Positions 2,243-18,745 of a stretch of DNA of 20,338 nucleotides are shown one piece after another. Below the pieces are notes generated by a model. The model made no database searches. It was not told the DNA's origin and was given only the letters and a program-made list of their open reading frames with translations. This DNA comes from Proteromonas lacertae (lineage: Eukaryota; Sar; Bigyra; Opalinata; Proteromonadidae): contig NGBS01001238.1 of the NCBI GenBank assembly GCA_002245135.1, positions 1 through 20,338 on the forward strand, given 5' to 3'. Made by a program: the position numbers and the translations under genes. The stretch's first letter is position 1. Each line of letters starts with the position of its first letter.

Positions 2243-2754
2243 ATTTTTCAAATGATATTTCAATTCTTTCATTTTTCTATTGTTTTTATACAGGGTCGTA
2301 TAAATAGTTAACCTATAGGTTTTAGGTAAAACCTATAATCTAGCCTTGACCGTCTGTCGGTCAAACCTGGAGAATAATTTTGTTAGAATCTATTTTAATT
2401 ACTTACTGAACAAAGATTGTTTTATTCAAACTATCATACTATATAAGAATTTATTCCTACTTCTTGTTTTAATTTAGTTACCATAGTTAGAATAAGATTG
2501 GTTTAAATTGTAAAAATATCTATTCTGATATATTAAAATTCATATACAAACTACTTAATAGTGATATTTTACACATTTATAAACAACTTGTTATTTTGAT
2601 GATTTATTTATATTGATTACTATCTCTAAAAAATAAATATAAATGTAATTATAATAATAAATCTCTATTTCTGGATAATAATGATTTCTCTTAAATAATT
2701 ATTTCAAAAAGAATTAAATGAAATAATACCTAGTTTAAAAAATATGTTAAAATC
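2243..2754. other. Non-coding AT-rich interval
   Basis: Apart from the terminal-repeat-like segment at 2291-2370 I see no gene. The rest is AT-rich with no open frame of useful length and no recognisable RNA gene. Confidence 0.5.
2291..2370 (+). repeat. hAT-like terminus with two perfect hairpins
   Basis: Begins CAGGGTCGTATAAATAG, closely resembling CAGGGTTGTATTTATCGG at 14720, which precedes a BED/hAT transposase relic. Two perfect stem-loops follow: ATAGGTTTT/AAAACCTAT (2315-2336, loop AGGT) and TTGACCG/CGGTCAA (2346-2364, loop TCTGT). Terminal CAGGG and subterminal GGTCAAACC-type repeats are typical of hAT ends. No partner end with a matching 8-bp target duplication was found, so this may be a solo end. 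Confidence 0.5.
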
Positions 2755-3090
2755 TGTTGTGCGCCGTTTGTCATAGTTGGCCATTTGTCTACCAGACACT
2801 TTTAAAACAAACTAAATGTATATTCTTACTTGTCTTGATGAAAAATTGTTACTTTTATACTTATTTTGTTATATGACCTACCTCTGCATTATATTTTTTT
2901 GTTAATATAAATAGTTTGAATATTTGCACCGTTTGTTTTCTAGAAATTTTTGAAGCAAACTAAATGCATAATTAGCTAATATAGACAAAAATACATTAGC
3001 TGAAATGATTAGAACAACTTAATGTTGATCATAAGACATTTAAAATGAAAAAAGAAGTTATAGAAAGATTTAGTAATTATAATATTCTAT
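2755..3090. mobile_element. Half copy of the foldback element
   Basis: Starts TGTTGTGCGCCGTTTGTC and stays nearly identical to 606-940 (offset 2149) through the left arm and the loop, then diverges at about 3090 where the second arm should begin. It is therefore a one-armed, deleted copy. The low divergence from the copy at 606 suggests recent duplication or gene conversion. No ORF. Confidence 0.8.
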
Positions 3091-3739: not shown

Positions 3740-4414
3740 TTATTTTCTGCTAAACACTATATCTATAGGTGAAATATATTTCTTATCTATATAATATCCA
3801 TTATTATTTAGAAGCATAGTGATATTCCGTTTTACATGGTTGTTTAAATGATTCCATTCTATAATCCAATGAGATACTTTTACATTAAAATCAAATGTTT
3901 GTAAAACTTCTAATTCACTCCCTTCTACATCCAAAGAAAATAAATCTATATGATTTACATTATATTTATGAGTTATATTCTTAATTGTGTTACACTTAAT
4001 ACTATTTTTTGTTATATTACTATGATTAATTGATCCTAAATATCCTTTATCGTAATAATTTGTAAATTCTGATTTGCATATTGGTGAACAAATAATAATA
4101 GAATTACTTCTATAGTAAGAGTTATTCATTAATCTTTTACAGTTTTTCTCTCCTCCTTCAATTAAAATACCATGCCAATTAAAATTCTTTTCAAAAAAAT
4201 AAGAGTTACTAATACTAACACCATCAAACGCACCAATCTCAACAAAGAATCCATTCATTTTTTGTTGAAAAAAATAATAGTATAAAGATAAATCTTGATT
4301 AAATTGACTATTTTTATATTTTAACATTATTCTACTATCTTTATTCATGTATTTTGGTGATAAAAATATAAGAATAAAGAAAATTAGTATTATAATAAAG
4401 CATGTCGATAACAT
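3740..4414 (-). CDS. FkbM-type SAM-dependent methyltransferase, membrane-anchored
   Basis: 224 aa from the ATG at 4414; an in-frame TTG at 4429 adds five residues but is a less likely start. Residues 4-19 form a hydrophobic anchor, predicting type II topology with the enzyme in the secretory lumen. Family signatures are clear: Q39-D41 in a loop before the fold; FVEIGAFDG (57-65) as the SAM-binding glycine loop; WHGILIEGG (80-88) with the acidic residue at the end of strand 2; and IDLFSLDVEGSELEVL (156-171), the hallmark FkbM segment. FkbM enzymes O-methylate small molecules and sugars; methylation of a glycan is an inference from the neighbouring glycosyltransferases. Length is normal, with no internal break. 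The stop is TAA. Confidence 0.85.
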   Translation of the reverse strand: MLSTCFIIILIFFILIFLSPKYMNKDSRIMLKYKNSQFNQDLSLYYYFFQQKMNGFFVEIGAFDGVSISNSYFFEKNFNWHGILIEGGEKNCKRLMNNSYYRSNSIIICSPICKSEFTNYYDKGYLGSINHSNITKNSIKCNTIKNITHKYNVNHIDLFSLDVEGSELEVLQTFDFNVKVSHWIIEWNHLNNHVKRNITMLLNNNGYYIDKKYISPIDIVFSRK

Positions 4415-4590
4415 ATCCTCAATTAACAACTAAATAACAATATGTAAAATATAGCATGAATTGATAGTATTGATCTTCTTCATTTAGTAATTGTGGTATA
4501 GCTAACCATAAACTAATTACTAACTATATCATACTTTACTCTAAGCCTATGACTTTTATCCTTTATATTGTGATAAGTCCTACACTTGTT

Positions 4591-5238: not shown

Positions 5239-5596
5239 TAGGTGAATTATAAGGATGATAAAACTTACCATTTAGAACCCTCCCGAGAAATCTACAACTA
5301 GCTGGAGTTACCATTTGGTAACTAGTTAACAATTGTAAACTCTCGGTTGCCCAGTTGGTTTCCACGGTTCAATTAAAAGCTCTTACAAGGTCACCAGCGT
5401 AGCAAGGAGTGTCAAGAGCGTGATTAGATTCATCACTTCGAGGTAACCAACACTTCTAGATAGCTTACTGGATTCCCGTAGGAAGTAGACCCGTTAGGAG
5501 GAATCCCGTAGGAACCTTACGTAAATGGGACTATGGTACATTGTCACAGAGTTCTAACGAGTGTTCTAGGAGTCCGTCCCCTTCTAGATTCAGAGT
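5239..5596 (+). repeat. Left inverted repeat flanking the polB fragment
   Basis: Matches 7738-8213 in reverse complement with small deletions. Shared blocks include GTTACCATTTGGTAACTAG, AGCAAGGAGTGTCAAGAGCG, CGAGGTAACCAACACTTCTA, ACGTAAATGGGACTATGGTA and CTAGGAGTCCGTCCCC. The right copy carries about 60 extra bases near 7900-7950. These repeats bound the Polinton polB relic, which ends within a few bases of the right copy. They may be Polinton terminal repeats or an inverted duplication of a host repeat. Confidence 0.8.
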
Positions 5597-5670
5597 TGAC
5601 CTTTATGGTAGATTCATCGATTGCATCGATGAAGGTATTTTATACAGAAATAGGACCTTTATGGCATAAT

Positions 5671-7725
5671 GAAAAATCAAGTTTAAAATTTAGACAAATT
5701 GGATAAGTTGAAGTTCAATTAGTCAAAGCAACTGCTATGGCAGGTAGTGGTAAAAATAAAGAACTTCCAGATTGAATAATTAATAAAAAATGTGTTATAT
5801 CAATAGATAATAATAAAGAAAATGATCAATTATGTTTTCTATATGTTATAACAGCAGCATTTTTTCATGGTAATAATAATAATAAGAATTTAAATAGAGC
5901 AGAACAATATAAAGAATATATTAGAGTTAACTACAATTATAGTATGTTATATTTCATAGCAGATCCTATTAAACATAAAAACAAATTCATGAATTTGAAA
6001 CAATAAATCATATAACATTAAATATATTCAAAATAACAGATAAAGAAGTAGTTCCAATATATGTAACACATATAGATAAATTCAATAGTTATCCACATGT
6101 AAATTTATTATATAATGAAAAACATTATTCTACTATTACAAAATTAAATGTAATATTATTACCTAAAGGAAAGAAGCGTAAAAATTGTTATCCTAGGTAT
6201 AATTATTGTTTTGCTTTATTATCAACAGATGAAAAAAGAATACAACATGAAAAATATAATTGTCAACAACATATAGGTATTATAAGAAATTTCCCTGCGA
6301 AAAATATTCAATTGGAATTTAAAAACTTTAAATATATGCAACTAATACCTATAGTAATATATTGGGATACTGAAGTTTATCAGGAGAAAGTAACAGATCC
6401 AATTTTAAATGAGAAAGGTATTTTATCAAAGCATATATTATCCAGTTGGTGTTTATATGTTGTATCTAAATATCCTAATATAAATCCTAATAAAATTGAG
6501 TATGATTTTAAAACACCTAAAGATAATGAAACAGATTTAGAGGATAGATTAATAGCTAAATTTATGGAAATACAAAAAGAAATATTAGATTTATATGAAG
6601 AAAAATTAAATAATCCAGAAAAAATGATAGGATATAATAGAGATGATCCTAAAAATAAATTGAATTATTGTATATATGTAAAGAACCATTTGATTATAGA
6701 AATAAGAATAAGAAACCTGTTTTACACCATGACCACTTTAGTGGACAATTTATAGGTAGAATATGTAATAATTGCAACTTCCTTATATGTTTAAATAATA
6801 TGCCAATCCCTTGTATTGCTCATAATTCCAAAAATTATGACAATTATTATTTTAATAGAGGATTGTCCAGATGGATAATAAATTAAGAGATGAATTTTGT
6901 AAAGAAAATAATATTGATCCTAATGTAAATTATGTTTCAGATACTGAATCTGATAGTGAAACTGAAGAAGAAGAAGATAATACTAATACTAATACTAACT
7001 CTATTCCTATTCCACATCAAGATAGTGATACATTTACTCCATTACCTCCTTATACTAATGGCTTTATAACAGCAAATAAAATAAAAGATTATGCAAAAGA
7101 TTTGAGAAAAGAAAAATAAGAAGAAAAAGATAATAATTTCAGTATGAGTTAATTTCATGATTCTTTAAGTGTTATGGAAACTCTAGAAGTTAAAAGCGAA
7201 GTAATACAAATTAATAATGAAGAAGTTAATGCATTGTTAGAATTAGAAGAAATGTTAAGAAGAGATAGTCCTAGAAATGCAGAAGATGTTATAGATGAAA
7301 TAGATGAACAATCTGCTTATAGAATTATTAAATGTAAAGATGGTAAAATAAGAAAATATAAAAACAAAAAACAATATAAATCACAATTATCAGTATTACC
7401 CAAAACAGATAATAAATTATTATTAATAAAGTTCAACAAATTATTCTTTATGGACTCATATCAATTCTTACCAAGTTCTTTAGATTCTTTAACAAAGTCA
7501 TATACTCAATCAATAAGAGATAATGGAAATTATCAAAAATATTTCAGTTATGTATATGAAGATATTTATAAAAAATATTCTGCTCCTGGTAAATTGGATC
7601 ATGATATGAATATTGATGCTTTTATCCATAAATGGTGTTTATCTAAAGGATATTTTCCATATGAATATGTAGATTCATTATCTAAATATTTTAATACTTT
7701 TGAACTACCTCCTAAAGATATATAG
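5671..7725 (+). pseudogene. polB: Polinton/Maverick-type DNA polymerase B, N-terminal and exonuclease part, frameshifted
   Basis: Four frame segments, about 5671-6006, 6006-6690, 6690-6886 and 6871-7725, run collinearly with protein-primed PolB of Polintons. Seen in order: an NKKCVISI...LCFLYVITAA block; HVNLLYNEKHYS; a degenerate Cys/His knuckle; VIYWDTEVY carrying the DxE of exonuclease motif I; CKEPFDY; HHDHFSGQFIGR and IPCIAHNSKNYDNY (the second exonuclease region, with the family-typical His-Asn); an acidic low-complexity insert rich in Glu, Asp and Thr; and DSYQFLPSSLDSL with GYFPYEYVDS. It then ends at LPPKDI. The polymerase palm motifs are absent, so it cannot be active. Breaks: stops at 5704, 5773, 7117 and about 7150, and three frameshifts. 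AT-rich codons contrast with the GC-richer flanks. No integrase, ATPase or capsid gene is visible. Confidence 0.85.
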
Positions 7726-7737
7726 TATATAAATGAG

Positions 7738-8213
7738 ACTCTGAATCTAGAGGGGGACGGACTCCTAGAACACTCGTTAGAACTCTGTGAAAATGTACCA
7801 TAGTCCCATTTACGTAAGGTTCCTATGGTATTCCTCCTAACGGGGTCTACTTCCTAACGGGGTCTACTTACTACGGGACTCCTGTAAGCTATTTCTATAC
7901 CTACCTATACATATCTATGAGATGATCTCCTACAGGTACTACTGGAAGCAATCTAGAAGTGTTGGTTACCTCGAAGTGATGAATCTAATCACGCTCTTGA
8001 CTCTCCTTGCTACGCTGGTGACCTTGTAAGGGCTTTTAATTGAACCGTGGAAACCAATCGTGGAACCAGGACTTTACAATTGTTAACTAGTTACCAAATG
8101 GTAACTCCGGGAGGTTCTAGCTAGTTGTGAATTTCTCAAGGCCCTTGAAGATAATAATTAGCAATCTCGGAAGGCTTCTGAAGGTAAGTTTTATCATCCT
8201 TATAACTCTCCTA
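7738..8213 (-). repeat. Right inverted repeat flanking the polB fragment
   Basis: Reverse-complement partner of 5239-5596. It begins 12 bases after the last polB codon and contains an additional stretch near 7900-7950. It runs outward into a repeat unit (about 8115-8225) that is duplicated at 8370-8480. Confidence 0.8.
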
Positions 8214-9416: not shown

Positions 9417-10917
9417 ATGTCCTTTTATGATTTTATATTATTTTATTATGGTTATAATATATTGTTATCTTGTAAGCAGTATAAAGTAATAGATAAAGCA
9501 TTGAAAGAAAACAGTATAAGCATTAATATACATTTGTGTATATAGAACTTAAAAATGTATGTTTTCAAGCTATCCGCCTAGATAGGCAAATACCTAATGG
9601 TTTAAAAGACTATATTAATCATGCTGCAAGAATGGTAAAGATTTATAAAGAACAAAATGATGCGGCTATAAAAAATATATCATTTCCCAAAAATGTTTCT
9701 ATTAATTACTTAGATGAGGATTATAAGTTGTACGAAAAGGTTGGAATATGTAATATACATAAATGTGGGTTTGTATTAGTGGCTGGCGGAATAGGGGAAA
9801 GAATGAGATGTGATAAACTTAAAGTATCTTTGCCAATTAATCAAATAACTGGTATAAGTCATTTAAATCTCTATTTTAAACATATTTTATCATACGAAAG
9901 TCTTATGAACACTACAATATTTATTTGTATTATGACTTCACAATCTACGAATAGAAGAATAAGACATTATCTTGAAGAGAATAATTATTTTGGATTGGCA
10001 AAAGATCAAATATTCATTATTCAACAATCTAATGTTCCTTCATTTTGTGACGAACAGTGTAATTTATCATATGAAAGTGGTATAATTAACTCTAAACCTC
10101 ATGGTCATGGTGATGTTCATTATTTGCTTTATCAAGTATACTAATTATATTATTGCCTTAGAGTAAAGTCTTGGACATGTGGAAAGAAAATGGAATTGAA
10201 AATTTAATTATTTTTCAAGATACTAACTCATTAGTATTTGAAGCAATTCCAATATTATTAGGGTATAGTATTATAAATAGTATTGATGTGAATTATTTAA
10301 CTGTAGAAAGATACAGAGGCGAAAAAGCATCTATAATGTGTTCATGTGAAGATAGTAAAAGAAAATATGATTTAAGAGCAATAGATTATTCACTACTTCC
10401 CAATTTAATAGGAGAAAATATAAATCATTGTACTGAAATAATATCGCAGTTTCCAGCAGTAACTAATGTAATATGTTTTGAAATAAATAACTATTATATG
10501 ACTATTAAACAAAATAACAAGTTACCAGAATATATTTTAACAAATAATATGTATAAATCATTTAGACTTGAGTCAGTTTTACAAGATTATTTATTATTAA
10601 CAGATAATCTTTCAAAAACTATTAGCATAATAATGCCTAGATGGTTATGCTTTAATCCAGTAAAAAATATTTCAAACAGCTTTAGCATATATACACCTGA
10701 TGATGGAGAAAATAAGATATATATAAAGAATATAAATAAATTAAGAAAATTAGGATGGGATATTGGTAATGATAGTATAATTTACATTGATCCTTTATTG
10801 ACAATTACTACAGATTGTATTAATAGTCATTTCAGTAATATAAAAATTACTACTAATTCTAAGTTAATAATAACTGGAAATGCATATATCAACAATTTAG
10901 AATTAGATGGATGCTAG
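9417..10917 (+). CDS. USP: UDP-sugar pyrophosphorylase, three exons, late premature stop
   Basis: Makes UDP-sugars from sugar-1-phosphates and UTP in the cytosol. Proposed exons are 9417-9513, 9546-10135 and 10162-10917. Signatures of plant-type USP: FQAIRLDRQIPNGLKDYI near the N-terminus; FVLVAGGIGERM with the nucleotide-binding glycine loop; KVSLP; IIQQSNVPSF; KPHGHGDVHYLLY; and, after intron 2, FQDTNSL...AIPILLGYS, RLESVLQDY, WLCFNPVKN and LELDG. Removing 26 bases at 10136-10161 joins LLYQ to SKVLDMWKENG exactly as in the family. Removing 32 bases at 9514-9545 gives an ATG start and a continuous N-terminus; this first exon is less certain. TAG at 10915 stops the frame right after LDGC, yet family-like sequence (INVKNGG) continues in frame to TAA at 11092-11094. 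Either a recently truncated gene or an early pseudogene. Confidence 0.8.
9514..9545 (+). other. Putative 32-nt intron 1 of USP
   Basis: Starts GTATAAG and ends TATATAG. Its removal joins the ATG-containing exon (codon phase 1) to the USP frame, which otherwise has no ATG upstream of the conserved FQAIRLD segment. It shares GTATA and TAG ends with the introns at 10136 and 19945. Confidence 0.5.
10136..10161 (+). other. 26-nt GT-AG intron 2 of USP
   Basis: Starts GTATACTAAT and ends CCTTAG, with an ACTAAT branch-point-like sequence directly after the donor. Length 26 (2 mod 3) accounts exactly for the frame change, and the spliced junction aligns with the family without gap. If unspliced, translation stops within three codons. 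Confidence 0.8.
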
Positions 10918-11094
10918 ACTATTAATGTAAAAAATGGAGGATGCGTAAAAATATCCAATTTAAAAATTTGCAACAAAGGATTTAAACATGTTAGTGCAAA
11001 ATATTCTTACTATAAAAATGCAATAATATGTATTAGCGAAATAAAATTATACTTTGGAAGAGATAATTATATAGTTAATAGAATCTTTTTATAA
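10918..11094 (+). pseudogene. Conserved C-terminal tail of USP after the in-frame TAG
   Basis: Same frame as exon 3, 58 codons to TAA. TINVKNGGCVKISNL continues the C-terminal beta-helix-like region of USP after LDG. A single base change (for example TTG to TAG) would explain the break. The last 20 bases overlap, tail to tail, the end of the GT61 gene. Confidence 0.6.
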
Positions 11095-12301
11095 ATTTTA
11101 TAAAATCAGTTTCATTAACATAGAAATATTTTAAATATTGAGTTGTAGAATTTGTATAATACATATAATGATTTGAATTCATCTCAATTGTTATTTTAGA
11201 ATAATCTTCTCTAAAATGTGATAAACTAATTTCAAATACTGTTATACCTTTTCTACAAAATAATATATTTGATAGACCAGCTCCAAACTCCCCTATAACA
11301 ACATCTGTATTATAAAACATTTCTATTACTTCCAACAAATTTTTGTTGTTGTCTCTATATACTAAAATATTGTGATCAGGGTAATTGATTTTCAATAATC
11401 TTATAATTTCGTTAAAATTCTTTAGAATTCTATTTTTCAACCTCTGGATAATGACAATATTCTTTTCTTTTTTGTATTTCTTTTTTATTATTTTTCTAAC
11501 TCTTTTTCTTAATAGTCTGTTAAATGATTGGATAATCGCAGAAGAAGGAACTAAATAATGGAAAGGAAATGGTATATAGAGATGATCAACATATATATAA
11601 TGTGAACTAATAATTCTTTCATTAGAAAATCCTAATATATTTAATACCAATCTAATTTCATCTTGTTTATATCTTGGAGGTGATATATGTATATAAATTT
11701 CTTTATGTTTTATCAAAAAATAGTAAAAAGGCGCTATTCTAGAAAGAGAATCTACTAATCCATGATATACAGCATCAGAATGCCATCCTCCAAAAAATAC
11801 AGCATATTGTACATGTAATGTATAAAATTTAGGAGTAGCAGGAGGAATAGATTTCATATAATAGCCAATATCATTATATTGTCCACTAAATATAATTACC
11901 TCACAATTTGCAATAATGTTAGATTTAGTTGAATATAAATTATGTGTTAATAATAATAACGGTTTTACAGTAGTAATTATGTCAAGATTAATTTTGTAAC
12001 ATGTGCCATTTGGATAGCAATAATATACAATATTATTTACTTTATGTGAATTTATAGTGTCAAATTTATAATATTTACTATTTTTATATATCTTGGTAAA
12101 ATCATTATACGTTAAATTATATCTACCCTTATATATTGTACATTTTTTCCTTGTAAAAGTAGTATTAGATTTAAATAACTTCCACCAATCGTTTTCTATA
12201 CTTATATAATATCTACCACATGAAACAATATAAAGTGATATTAAAAACAATATTATATAAATATAATATTTATTAAGTATAATATAGAGATATATATTCA
12301 T
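11075..12301 (-). CDS. GT61/DUF563-family glycosyltransferase
   Basis: 408 aa, intact, ATG to TAA. Residues 5-28 are a hydrophobic signal anchor, so the enzyme should face the Golgi lumen. Family marks: HSDAVYHGLVDSLSRIAPF (174-192), the counterpart of the conserved 'H...L.DSL.R' helix of DUF563; PFHYLVPS (246-253); the basic region 262-280; NIVIIQR (281-287), the 'r..i.R' strand; and DVVIGEFGAGLSNILF (333-348), the GxHGAGL-type nucleotide-sugar loop with Phe in place of His; then TVFEIS (354-359). Members transfer xylose, arabinose or GlcNAc in eukaryotes; the donor here is unknown. The gene is convergent with USP, and 110 bp separate its start from the stop of the upstream methyltransferase gene on the same strand. 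Confidence 0.85.
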   Translation of the reverse strand: MNIYLYIILNKYYIYIILFLISLYIVSCGRYYISIENDWWKLFKSNTTFTRKKCTIYKGRYNLTYNDFTKIYKNSKYYKFDTINSHKVNNIVYYCYPNGTCYKINLDIITTVKPLLLLTHNLYSTKSNIIANCEVIIFSGQYNDIGYYMKSIPPATPKFYTLHVQYAVFFGGWHSDAVYHGLVDSLSRIAPFYYFLIKHKEIYIHISPPRYKQDEIRLVLNILGFSNERIISSHYIYVDHLYIPFPFHYLVPSSAIIQSFNRLLRKRVRKIIKKKYKKEKNIVIIQRLKNRILKNFNEIIRLLKINYPDHNILVYRDNNKNLLEVIEMFYNTDVVIGEFGAGLSNILFCRKGITVFEISLSHFREDYSKITIEMNSNHYMYYTNSTTQYLKYFYVNETDFIKFIKRFY

Positions 12302-17578: not shown

Positions 17579-17663
17579 ATGGCGGAAATCCCCATATGGC
17601 GGAACTCTATATTGTAGAATGATTTAATGAAAACTAATATGATATTCATGATGTTCGGAGTTA

Positions 17664-18063
17664 GTTATTAACAAATATATAGTTAGTTTGTCATATGACC
17701 TACATCTGTGATATACTTATTTATGAACTTCATTATTATTAATATTAAGCTATTTTTTGTATATTCTCTATATTAATATTACAGTTACTACTACAGTCTA
17801 AAATACATTATCTGATATGAATAGAATACATTATTTTAAATGTTAAGGTAGTAAAAATTGAAATTAAAATGTAGGCTTGAGTGAGGCTTGAACTTATTTT
17901 TTTCTTTTTTCTTTTTTAACCTCCTTAACATTTAAAAAAGTGAATTCTATTCATATCAGATTATGTATTTTAGACTGTAGTAGTAACTGATACATTAAAA
18001 TAGAGAATATACAAAAATTAGTTTAATATTGATAATAATGAAGTTCATAAATAAGTATATCAC
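17664..18063. mobile_element. 5'-truncated hairpin element, copy A
   Basis: Arms at about 17708-17852 and 17921-18063 are inverted copies of each other (for example ATTCTATTCATATCAGAT against ATCTGATATGAATAGAAT). The loop contains TAGGCTTGAGTGAGGCTTG and a long pyrimidine tract. It lacks the TGTTGTGCGCC terminus on the left and abuts copy B directly on the right. No ORF. Confidence 0.8.
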
Positions 18064-18064
18064 A

Positions 18065-18745
18065 TGTTGTGCGCCGTTGAGCCATTCTCATCATACAATT
18101 ACTTTTAAAACAAACTAATATCATTTTTATCTTAGTTATAATGCGTTATTAACAAATATATAGTTAGTTTGTCATATGACCTACATCTATGATATACTTT
18201 TCTATGACCTACATTATTATTAATATTAAGCTATTTTTTTGTATATTCTCTATATTAATATTACAGCTACTACAGTCTAAAATACATTATCTGATATGAA
18301 TAGAATACATTATTTTAAATGTTAAGGTAGTAAAAATTGAAATTAAAATGTAGGCTTGAGTGAGGCTTGAACTTATTTTTTTCTTTTTTCTTTTTTAACC
18401 TCCTTAACATTTAAAAAAGTGAATTCTATTCATATCAGATTATGTATTTTAGACTGTAGTAGTAACTGATACATTAAAATAGAGAATATACAAAAAATAG
18501 CTTAATATTGATAATAATGAAGATCATAAAATAGTATGTCGTAGATGGTAGTGATTGAAGCAAAAAAATTAAAAATAAAATTATAATTGTTTTCAATATG
18601 TTGGGATAAAGTTCAAAAAAATATTTATCGCAGATGTAGCTTATATGACAAAGTAAGATTATATTTGCATATAACTCGCCATCTAACCACACACTATCAT
18701 TTTAGAATTGAAAAAAGTCTTCTTAACGCTCAACGGCGCACAACA
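18065..18745. mobile_element. Hairpin miniature element, copy B, with both termini
   Basis: Left end TGTTGTGCGCCGTTGAGCC; right end GCTCAACGGCGCACAACA, a perfect inverted match over 18 bases. The interior repeats copy A at a period of 481 bp, with arms at about 18190-18333 and 18402-18541 around the same pyrimidine-rich loop. The subterminal ATATGACCTACATCT near 18175 has a degenerate inverted counterpart near 18632. No transposase, so non-autonomous. No clear target-site duplication is visible. Confidence 0.8.

Follow-up and report, generated by a model that had tools for sequence, protein, structure and literature searches.

A probable 26-nt spliceosomal intron in a UDP-sugar pyrophosphorylase gene of an AT-rich genome with many tiny GTAT...TAG introns

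The window (bases 1–20,338 of contig C452, the whole stretch of DNA that was analysed) belongs to a genome whose 1181 contigs total 50.22 Mb and whose sampled loci have 25–29 per cent GC. It carries a gene predicted to encode a UDP-sugar pyrophosphorylase (USP), as it has a UDPGP domain (PF01704) and LVAGGxGER, the motif of the USP family. A home-made intron scanner models this gene at 9417–10917 with two introns. The second of them, a 26-nt segment (gtatactaattatattattgccttag), was missed when the scanner was run on the whole window and was called when the run was confined to the gene region and the intron penalty was lowered. The features of the gene are as follows.

9417 to 9513, plus strand: USP-like exon 1, MSFYDFILFYYGYNILLSCKQYKVIDKALKEN, with an N-terminus similar to that of the model at paralogous locus L008 (MFFSDFVLYYYGYYLLLSCKQ...)
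9514 to 9545, plus strand: intron 1, 32 nt, GTATAA...TATATAG, phase 1
9546 to 10135, plus strand: exon 2, with the N-terminal part of the UDPGP domain (PF01704, E 1.1e-13 on the ORF 9536–10144)
10136 to 10161, plus strand: intron 2, 26 nt, phase 0, donor GTATAC, acceptor TTAG
10140 to 10145, plus strand: ACTAAT, proposed in the first-pass annotation as a branch site; conserved neither among the inserts of the paralogs nor across the genome sample
10142 to 10144, plus strand: TAA inside intron 2, closing the exon-2 frame
10159 to 10161, plus strand: TAG, acceptor of intron 2, which also closes the exon-3 frame directly upstream
10162 to 10917, plus strand: exon 3, ending in an in-frame TAG; 53–58 per cent identical to its counterparts at L005–L008
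10915 to 10917, plus strand: the in-frame TAG, at a position where the six relatives aligned have leucine

Intron 1, which was absent from the first-pass annotation, moves the likely start of the gene to the ATG at 9417. The second half of the gene taken alone (ORF 10171–10917) has no Pfam match at E 0.001 and aligns with the second half of the USP paralogs. Because paralog similarity persists past the TAG at 10915–10917 for about 58 codons, to about 11094, this TAG is probably recent; given its presence, the window's gene may be in decay and may no longer use its own intron. We considered, and rejected, a recoding of TAG as glutamine, since the TAG at 10915 matches leucine in the relatives aligned, several TAGs that lie in frame elsewhere mark the ends of introns, and the UGP frame at locus L001 stops directly after its conserved LRILEH end. 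Gene models were built with the standard genetic code. The USP gene is flanked by two minus-strand genes, for a FkbM-type methyltransferase (3740–4429) and a family 61 glycosyltransferase (11075–12301). The window also holds fold-back and repeated elements at 602–1201, 2748–3050, and 17623–18547, with nearby inverted arms of 157–173 nt that are 90–98 per cent complementary and direct copies that are 98–99 per cent identical. A further element, at 5292–8120, has long inverted arms (186 nt at 89 per cent and 107 nt at 96 per cent) and encloses two ORFs, 6312–6755 and 7174–7725, neither with a Pfam match.

Upstream of the 26-nt segment, the frame ...KPHGHGDVHYLLYQ runs on as far as the TAA at 10142–10144, and the downstream frame, SKVLDMWKENG..., is shut by the TAG at 10159–10161. 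Excision of the 26 nt gives HYLLYQSKVLDMW. In this spliced product, the spacing from HGD[VI] to W is 12 residues, the same as in 117 of the 120 homologs among the matches listed; two of the remaining three lack the HGD[VI]...W motif, and one has a different spacing. None of the matches listed in the protein homolog searches is from the organism itself. The segment thus combines GT...AG ends with a restored conserved frame, as a U2-type intron would. It also falls within the ultrashort, AT-rich GTAT...TAG class of 20–60 nt that we describe below for this genome, with an AT content of 77 per cent against a class mean of 86 per cent. Its exact ends are uncommon within that class: among 186 clean introns, six start with GTATAC and one ends in CTTAG. 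Introns of the Trichomonas type have a fused ACTAACACACAG 3′ motif, and neither the 26 nt nor the 3′ profile of the genome's introns contains it, which bears out an earlier remark that the acceptor is not of the Trichomonas ACACAG type.

To compare paralogs, we searched both halves of the gene with tblastn against the window and 18 loci of the same genome. Both halves are matched at 11 loci (the window, L005–L012, L014, and L016), and nine of these (the window and L005–L012) have a GT...TAG insert at the site of intron 2. The insert is 23 nt long in L005, L008, and L009–L012, 26 nt in L006 and the window, and 28 nt in L007; since L009–L012 have one insert sequence in common, the nine loci represent six distinct inserts. 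Together with the restored spacing, which is that of nearly all listed homologs, and the two closed frames, this distribution upholds the initial call of a spliceosomal intron, down to its exact ends. The other two loci, L014 and L016, hold almost identical copies of a distant USP, which shares about 36 per cent identity with the window's first half, has no insert, and reads CATCAA|AGTGGA at the junction; intron 2 therefore either arose in the divergent USP group or disappeared from L014/L016.

The first intron has a different distribution. In the scanner models, a counterpart of 22, 27, or 32 nt occurs at the matching position in eight of the 11 USP loci, the distant L014/L016 among them, so intron 1 is old; it is missing from the L005 and L007 models, and the L012 model does not include that end of the gene. 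A third short interruption, after residues KV, is found in L005, L008, and L009 and is absent from the window, L006, L007, and L014. Introns of 22–23 nt are present among the USP paralogs. In the second half of L009–L012, further downstream, the frame breaks near residue 158 of the piece used as query, and some copies may therefore be broken genes; the break is either an indel or another intron, and the scanner bridges it with a doubtful 89-nt intron. At L005, L009, L010, and L011, the scanner fuses an upstream ORF (...ILFRVS...) to USP, and this ORF is either a conserved neighbor or part of a fused gene. Turnover is also visible in UGP genes. Over the compared stretch, the exons of copies L001 and L018 are identical, and an intron measures 45 nt in the one and 53 nt in the other; the UGP genes at L017 and L004 have extra introns that are absent from L001/L018. 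The 45-nt intron of L001 is rich in AT repeats, suggestive of repeat-length change inside introns.

Among the names shown for the 120 matches listed for each protein, UGP homologs come mostly from opisthokonts, at about 58 per cent identity, and homologs of the 26S proteasome ATPase Rpt4 mostly from stramenopiles, at about 71 per cent, with no listed eukprot match above about 73 per cent. Sequences with the lgn mark, which we take to denote SRA assemblies, are closer: P0003 is 96 per cent identical to the L014 USP, and P0246 matches Rpt4 at 94 per cent identity in the stretch that follows its second intron. Judged by these identities, a close relative of the organism is present in the lgn-marked data.

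A genome-wide search for short GTATA...TAG gaps had been proposed in the first-pass annotation, and we carried it out on a sample of 220 kb (20 stretches of 10 kb plus the window). Before any motif was imposed, an unconstrained GT..AG scan called 227 introns, 138 of which start with GTAT. A scan trained on GTAT and TAG called 238 introns in 117 gene models, 91 of them with an intron; 220 of the 238 start with GTAT and 230 end in TAG, and over all calls the median length is 35 nt (5–95 per cent range, 27–146). For introns of 20–60 nt, GTAT/TAG gave 228 calls, compared with six for CATA/CTA and seven for ATAC/CTA, both of them pairs of opposite-strand words. Eight donor anagrams gave 15–43 calls, five acceptor substitutes 59–89, and two double decoys 26 and 33, although decoys control only partly here, because the coding model was retrained on its own GTAT/TAG calls and the comparison somewhat favors that pair. 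From the 238 calls, we selected a clean subset of 186 introns (22–60 nt, GTAT start, and TAG end), whose median length is 33 nt. A Pfam scan of six of the 117 predicted proteins matched each of them to a family; among the domains, that of D-Tyr-tRNA deacylase is unbroken at residues 2–146 over three introns (36, 32, and 29 nt), as is COG4_m over another three. These results point to tiny GTAT...TAG introns as the standard class of the genome sample, and within it, the single intron at 10136–10161 is ordinary.

Some calls at the two ends of the length range are not trusted. In the one case examined of introns called at 16–17 nt, that of Rpt4 at locus L025, removal of 35 nt rather than 17 nt gives a gap-free alignment with 14 relatives in the displayed part. 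Of the window's calls, the three long ones (86, 98, and 126 nt) are probably false.

In the clean introns, donor position +5 is A in 65 per cent, T in 27 per cent, and G in 6 per cent; +6 is T in 58 per cent, and acceptor position −4 is A in 74 per cent. Only 22 of the 238 trained-scan introns have AG preceding the donor. AG is nearly absent 2–12 nt before the acceptor, where 4 are seen and shuffling gives a mean of 34.3 (sd 5.0; minimum 21 in 500 shuffles), a deficit that the scanner's bias toward TAG could slightly increase. At 13–30 nt before the acceptor, AG is slightly low (43 seen, 53.6 expected). Of the other dinucleotides in the 2–12 nt zone, GA is not depleted (46 versus 33.9 expected), TG is high (89 versus 52.2), GT is slightly low (52 versus 61.7), and the deficit of AC (21 versus 31.6) is far milder than that of AG. 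We read the AG depletion as a sign that the first AG is chosen downstream of a branch site lying at least about 12 nt upstream.

No clear branch motif emerged from the 186 introns: T[AG]A[CT], TAA[CT], and CT[AG]A[CT] occur 10–25 nt before the acceptor about as often as in shuffles (for the last, 7 seen versus 5.7 expected). TTGAA near the 3′ end is mildly enriched (19 introns versus 8.1 expected), and T[AG]A[CT] at 3–9 nt before the end is found in 68 introns (55.8 ± 6.2 expected); both lie too near the AG to be a usual branch site. The earlier proposal that ACTAAT, directly after the donor, serves as branch point is not supported: the motif occurs in two of the 186 introns, never at +5, and none of the five other distinct inserts at the site contains it. 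In this one intron, its use is possible, with the second A 17 nt before the 3′ end. Nor is the strained spliceosome geometry that had been read into this arrangement required: in Stentor, according to the part of the study cited, most branch adenosines are at position 10 or 11 (PMC9505925).

The host has a major spliceosome as far as its U1, U2, U5, U6, and Prp8 matches indicate. The U6-binding domain of Prp8 is matched at E 1.1e-88 in an open frame of 2361 residues. There are two U6 matches (98.3 and 78.9 bits), and the better copy has ACAGAGA; the second copy (L041, 128–229) has an altered ACAGAGA box and is possibly a pseudogene. U2 is matched at 168.6 bits with GUGUAGUA, U1 at 75.9 bits with the 5′ end AUACUUACCUG, and U5 at 92.2 bits. 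The key sequences of U1, U2, and the better U6 copy are canonical. A U12 snRNA match of 56.9 bits (G000, C424:32552–32701), slightly above the gathering score of 53, suggests that a minor spliceosome is kept as well.

That match, and the GTAT start of the intron, might recommend a minor (U12-type) intron. Such introns have an RTATCCTT donor and a TCCTTAAC-like branch site; the 26 nt contain neither, and the GTAT...TAG pattern is true of most scanner introns, which leaves this reading with a negligible probability. Programmed ribosomal frameshifting, in which the RNA stays uncut and the ribosome slips between frames, would suit two ORFs that are adjacent and in different frames. A slip of +1 or −1 before the TAA at 10142–10144 nevertheless runs into the TAG at 10159–10161, so that the two stops, one in each frame, rule it out. 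Moreover, TAG stands directly ahead of the downstream frame in all six distinct inserts, the 28-nt insert of L007 is in a different frame class from the 23- and 26-nt inserts, and bypass of the whole insert by the ribosome would leave its GT...TAG ends unexplained. We regard frameshifting, too, as exceedingly improbable.

Two explanations at the level of the DNA are a shade less remote. The insert could be a random insertion in a pseudogene, given the TAG that replaces the relatives' leucine and the further frame break in L009–L012; against this, its position is common to nine loci with GT..TAG ends, the flanking frames are still similar to those of L005–L008, with about 50–58 per cent protein identity, and a recent nonsense change leaves the insert unexplained. 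This makes random insertion very unlikely. Excision from DNA, as with the internal eliminated sequences of ciliates, seems slightly less probable still. The inserts are short, AT-rich, and within genes, and ciliates have both introns and internal eliminated sequences; however, the inserts have GT...AG polarity, the genome contains spliceosomal RNAs and Prp8, and the AG depletion is a sign of acceptor choice on RNA. On the sequence evidence, we are therefore highly confident in assigning the 26 nt to a U2-type (major-class) spliceosomal intron of the genome's standard AT-rich, mostly 25–45 nt, GTAT...TAG class. We think it very probable that the insert is truly spliced, as an intron typical of an AT-rich genome full of tiny introns.

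For such a U2-type intron, recognition is probably across the intron. U1, through its ACUUACCU end, would make weak contact with the GUA of the donor, after which the ACAGA of U6 would pair with the donor, where +4U and +6U suit its A-C-A and +5A does not. U2 (GUAGUA) would take a degenerate branch site, and the acceptor would be whichever suitable AG comes first at a distance of at least about 12 nt downstream of it. Splicing would then join LLYQ to SKVLDMW and restore the USP frame. Splicing itself, the pairing details, and the branch site of intron 2 are what we infer here.

Intron lengths of this order are already known in other eukaryotes. In the portions of the literature cited, introns are 15–16 nt in Stentor (PMC9505925), 16–17 nt in mikrocytids, and 18–21 nt in chlorarachniophyte nucleomorphs (PMC10245619). 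Paramecium has a mode of 25 bp, and Oxytricha and Stylonychia have a class with a mean of 33–35 bp (PMC5014332); in Blastocystis, the mode is 30 and the median 31 nt (PMC5608401, PMC3129679). The initial statement that 26 nt is close to the smallest introns of any eukaryote was therefore overstated, as this length is well above these known minima of 15–21 nt, although the intron is near the short end in its own genome (7 of the 186 clean introns do not exceed 26 nt). As far as these sources go, short introns are shared with Paramecium and spirotrich ciliates, with lengths here broader than the Paramecium peak (PMC5014332). Blastocystis is alike in intron length and in having several introns per gene (PMC3129679, PMC5608401), whereas its genomes are 13–19 Mb with 40–55 per cent GC, compared with 50 Mb and about 27 per cent GC in the sample here. 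Stentor is also alike in its tiny introns, and the passages cited describe no strong branch consensus and a conserved U1 ACUUACCU and U2 GUAGUA (PMC9505925). Its introns and those of mikrocytids are nearly fixed in length, in contrast to the spread from 22 nt upward in this genome (PMC9505925, PMC10245619). Among the open-licence PMC papers listed in our searches, no report of ultrashort introns in Amoebozoa or Cochliopodium appeared. For Cochliopodium minus, the genome paper gives a mean intron of 682 bp, 4.7 introns per gene, and a mean gene length of 3076 bp, figures that do not easily agree arithmetically (PMC9198077). Gene finders or read mappers that set a minimum intron length can miss introns of 22–35 nt, and a genome like this one may then seem to have frameshifts in its genes.

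The donors favor +4T and +5A even though U1 and U6 look canonical, and a GUAUAU donor offers this U1 neither of the pairs usual at +4A and +5G. A search of the draft genome, introns disregarded, with the profile PF05971, which we take to be the Pfam family that includes METTL16, gave 0 candidates, with controls from bacteria and archaea only, 5 of 14 of which gave a signal. As a check of sensitivity, another methyltransferase family, PF00398, gave four matches on two contigs, three of them over the cut-off. Because the result is a negative one from a draft genome and an intron-blind search, the absence of METTL16 is a lead and not proof. SNRNP27 is present (41.7 bits, model positions 1–43 of 56) at locus L047 (C579:11380–11800), in a gene with apparently two or three short introns. 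It reads ...RQYMMPK before an apparent intron, and the conserved tail after RQYM is unmatched by the Pfam model. We take a methionine of this stretch to correspond to Met141, which would thus be kept here.

In yeasts, as described in the part cited of PMC10581693, a preference for +4U accompanies loss of METTL16 and of SNRNP27K or Met141, with U1 and U6 unchanged. The +4T/+5A donors and the lack of a METTL16-family match in our search fit this association. The likeness to the +4U donors of Saccharomycotina extends to an unchanged U1 ACUUACC and U6 ACAGA (PMC10581693, same part); here, by contrast, +5 is mostly A and not G, introns are many and tiny, and SNRNP27 is detected. Nothing in the host suggests a yeast. 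It is conceivable, and we propose it tentatively with somewhat more doubt than conviction, that this is an undescribed intron-rich lineage in which the donor consensus has shifted wholly to GUAU(A/U) and METTL16 has been lost in step, with canonical U1 and U6 kept. If true, the METTL16/+4U association would have an independent example outside yeasts, one in which introns have also become extremely short and U1 can hardly pair with the donor. With its tiny introns, canonical U1 and U6, +4U/+5A donors, and no METTL16-family gene detected, this genome offers a non-yeast test case, in which the link of U6 methylation to donor choice becomes testable outside yeasts.
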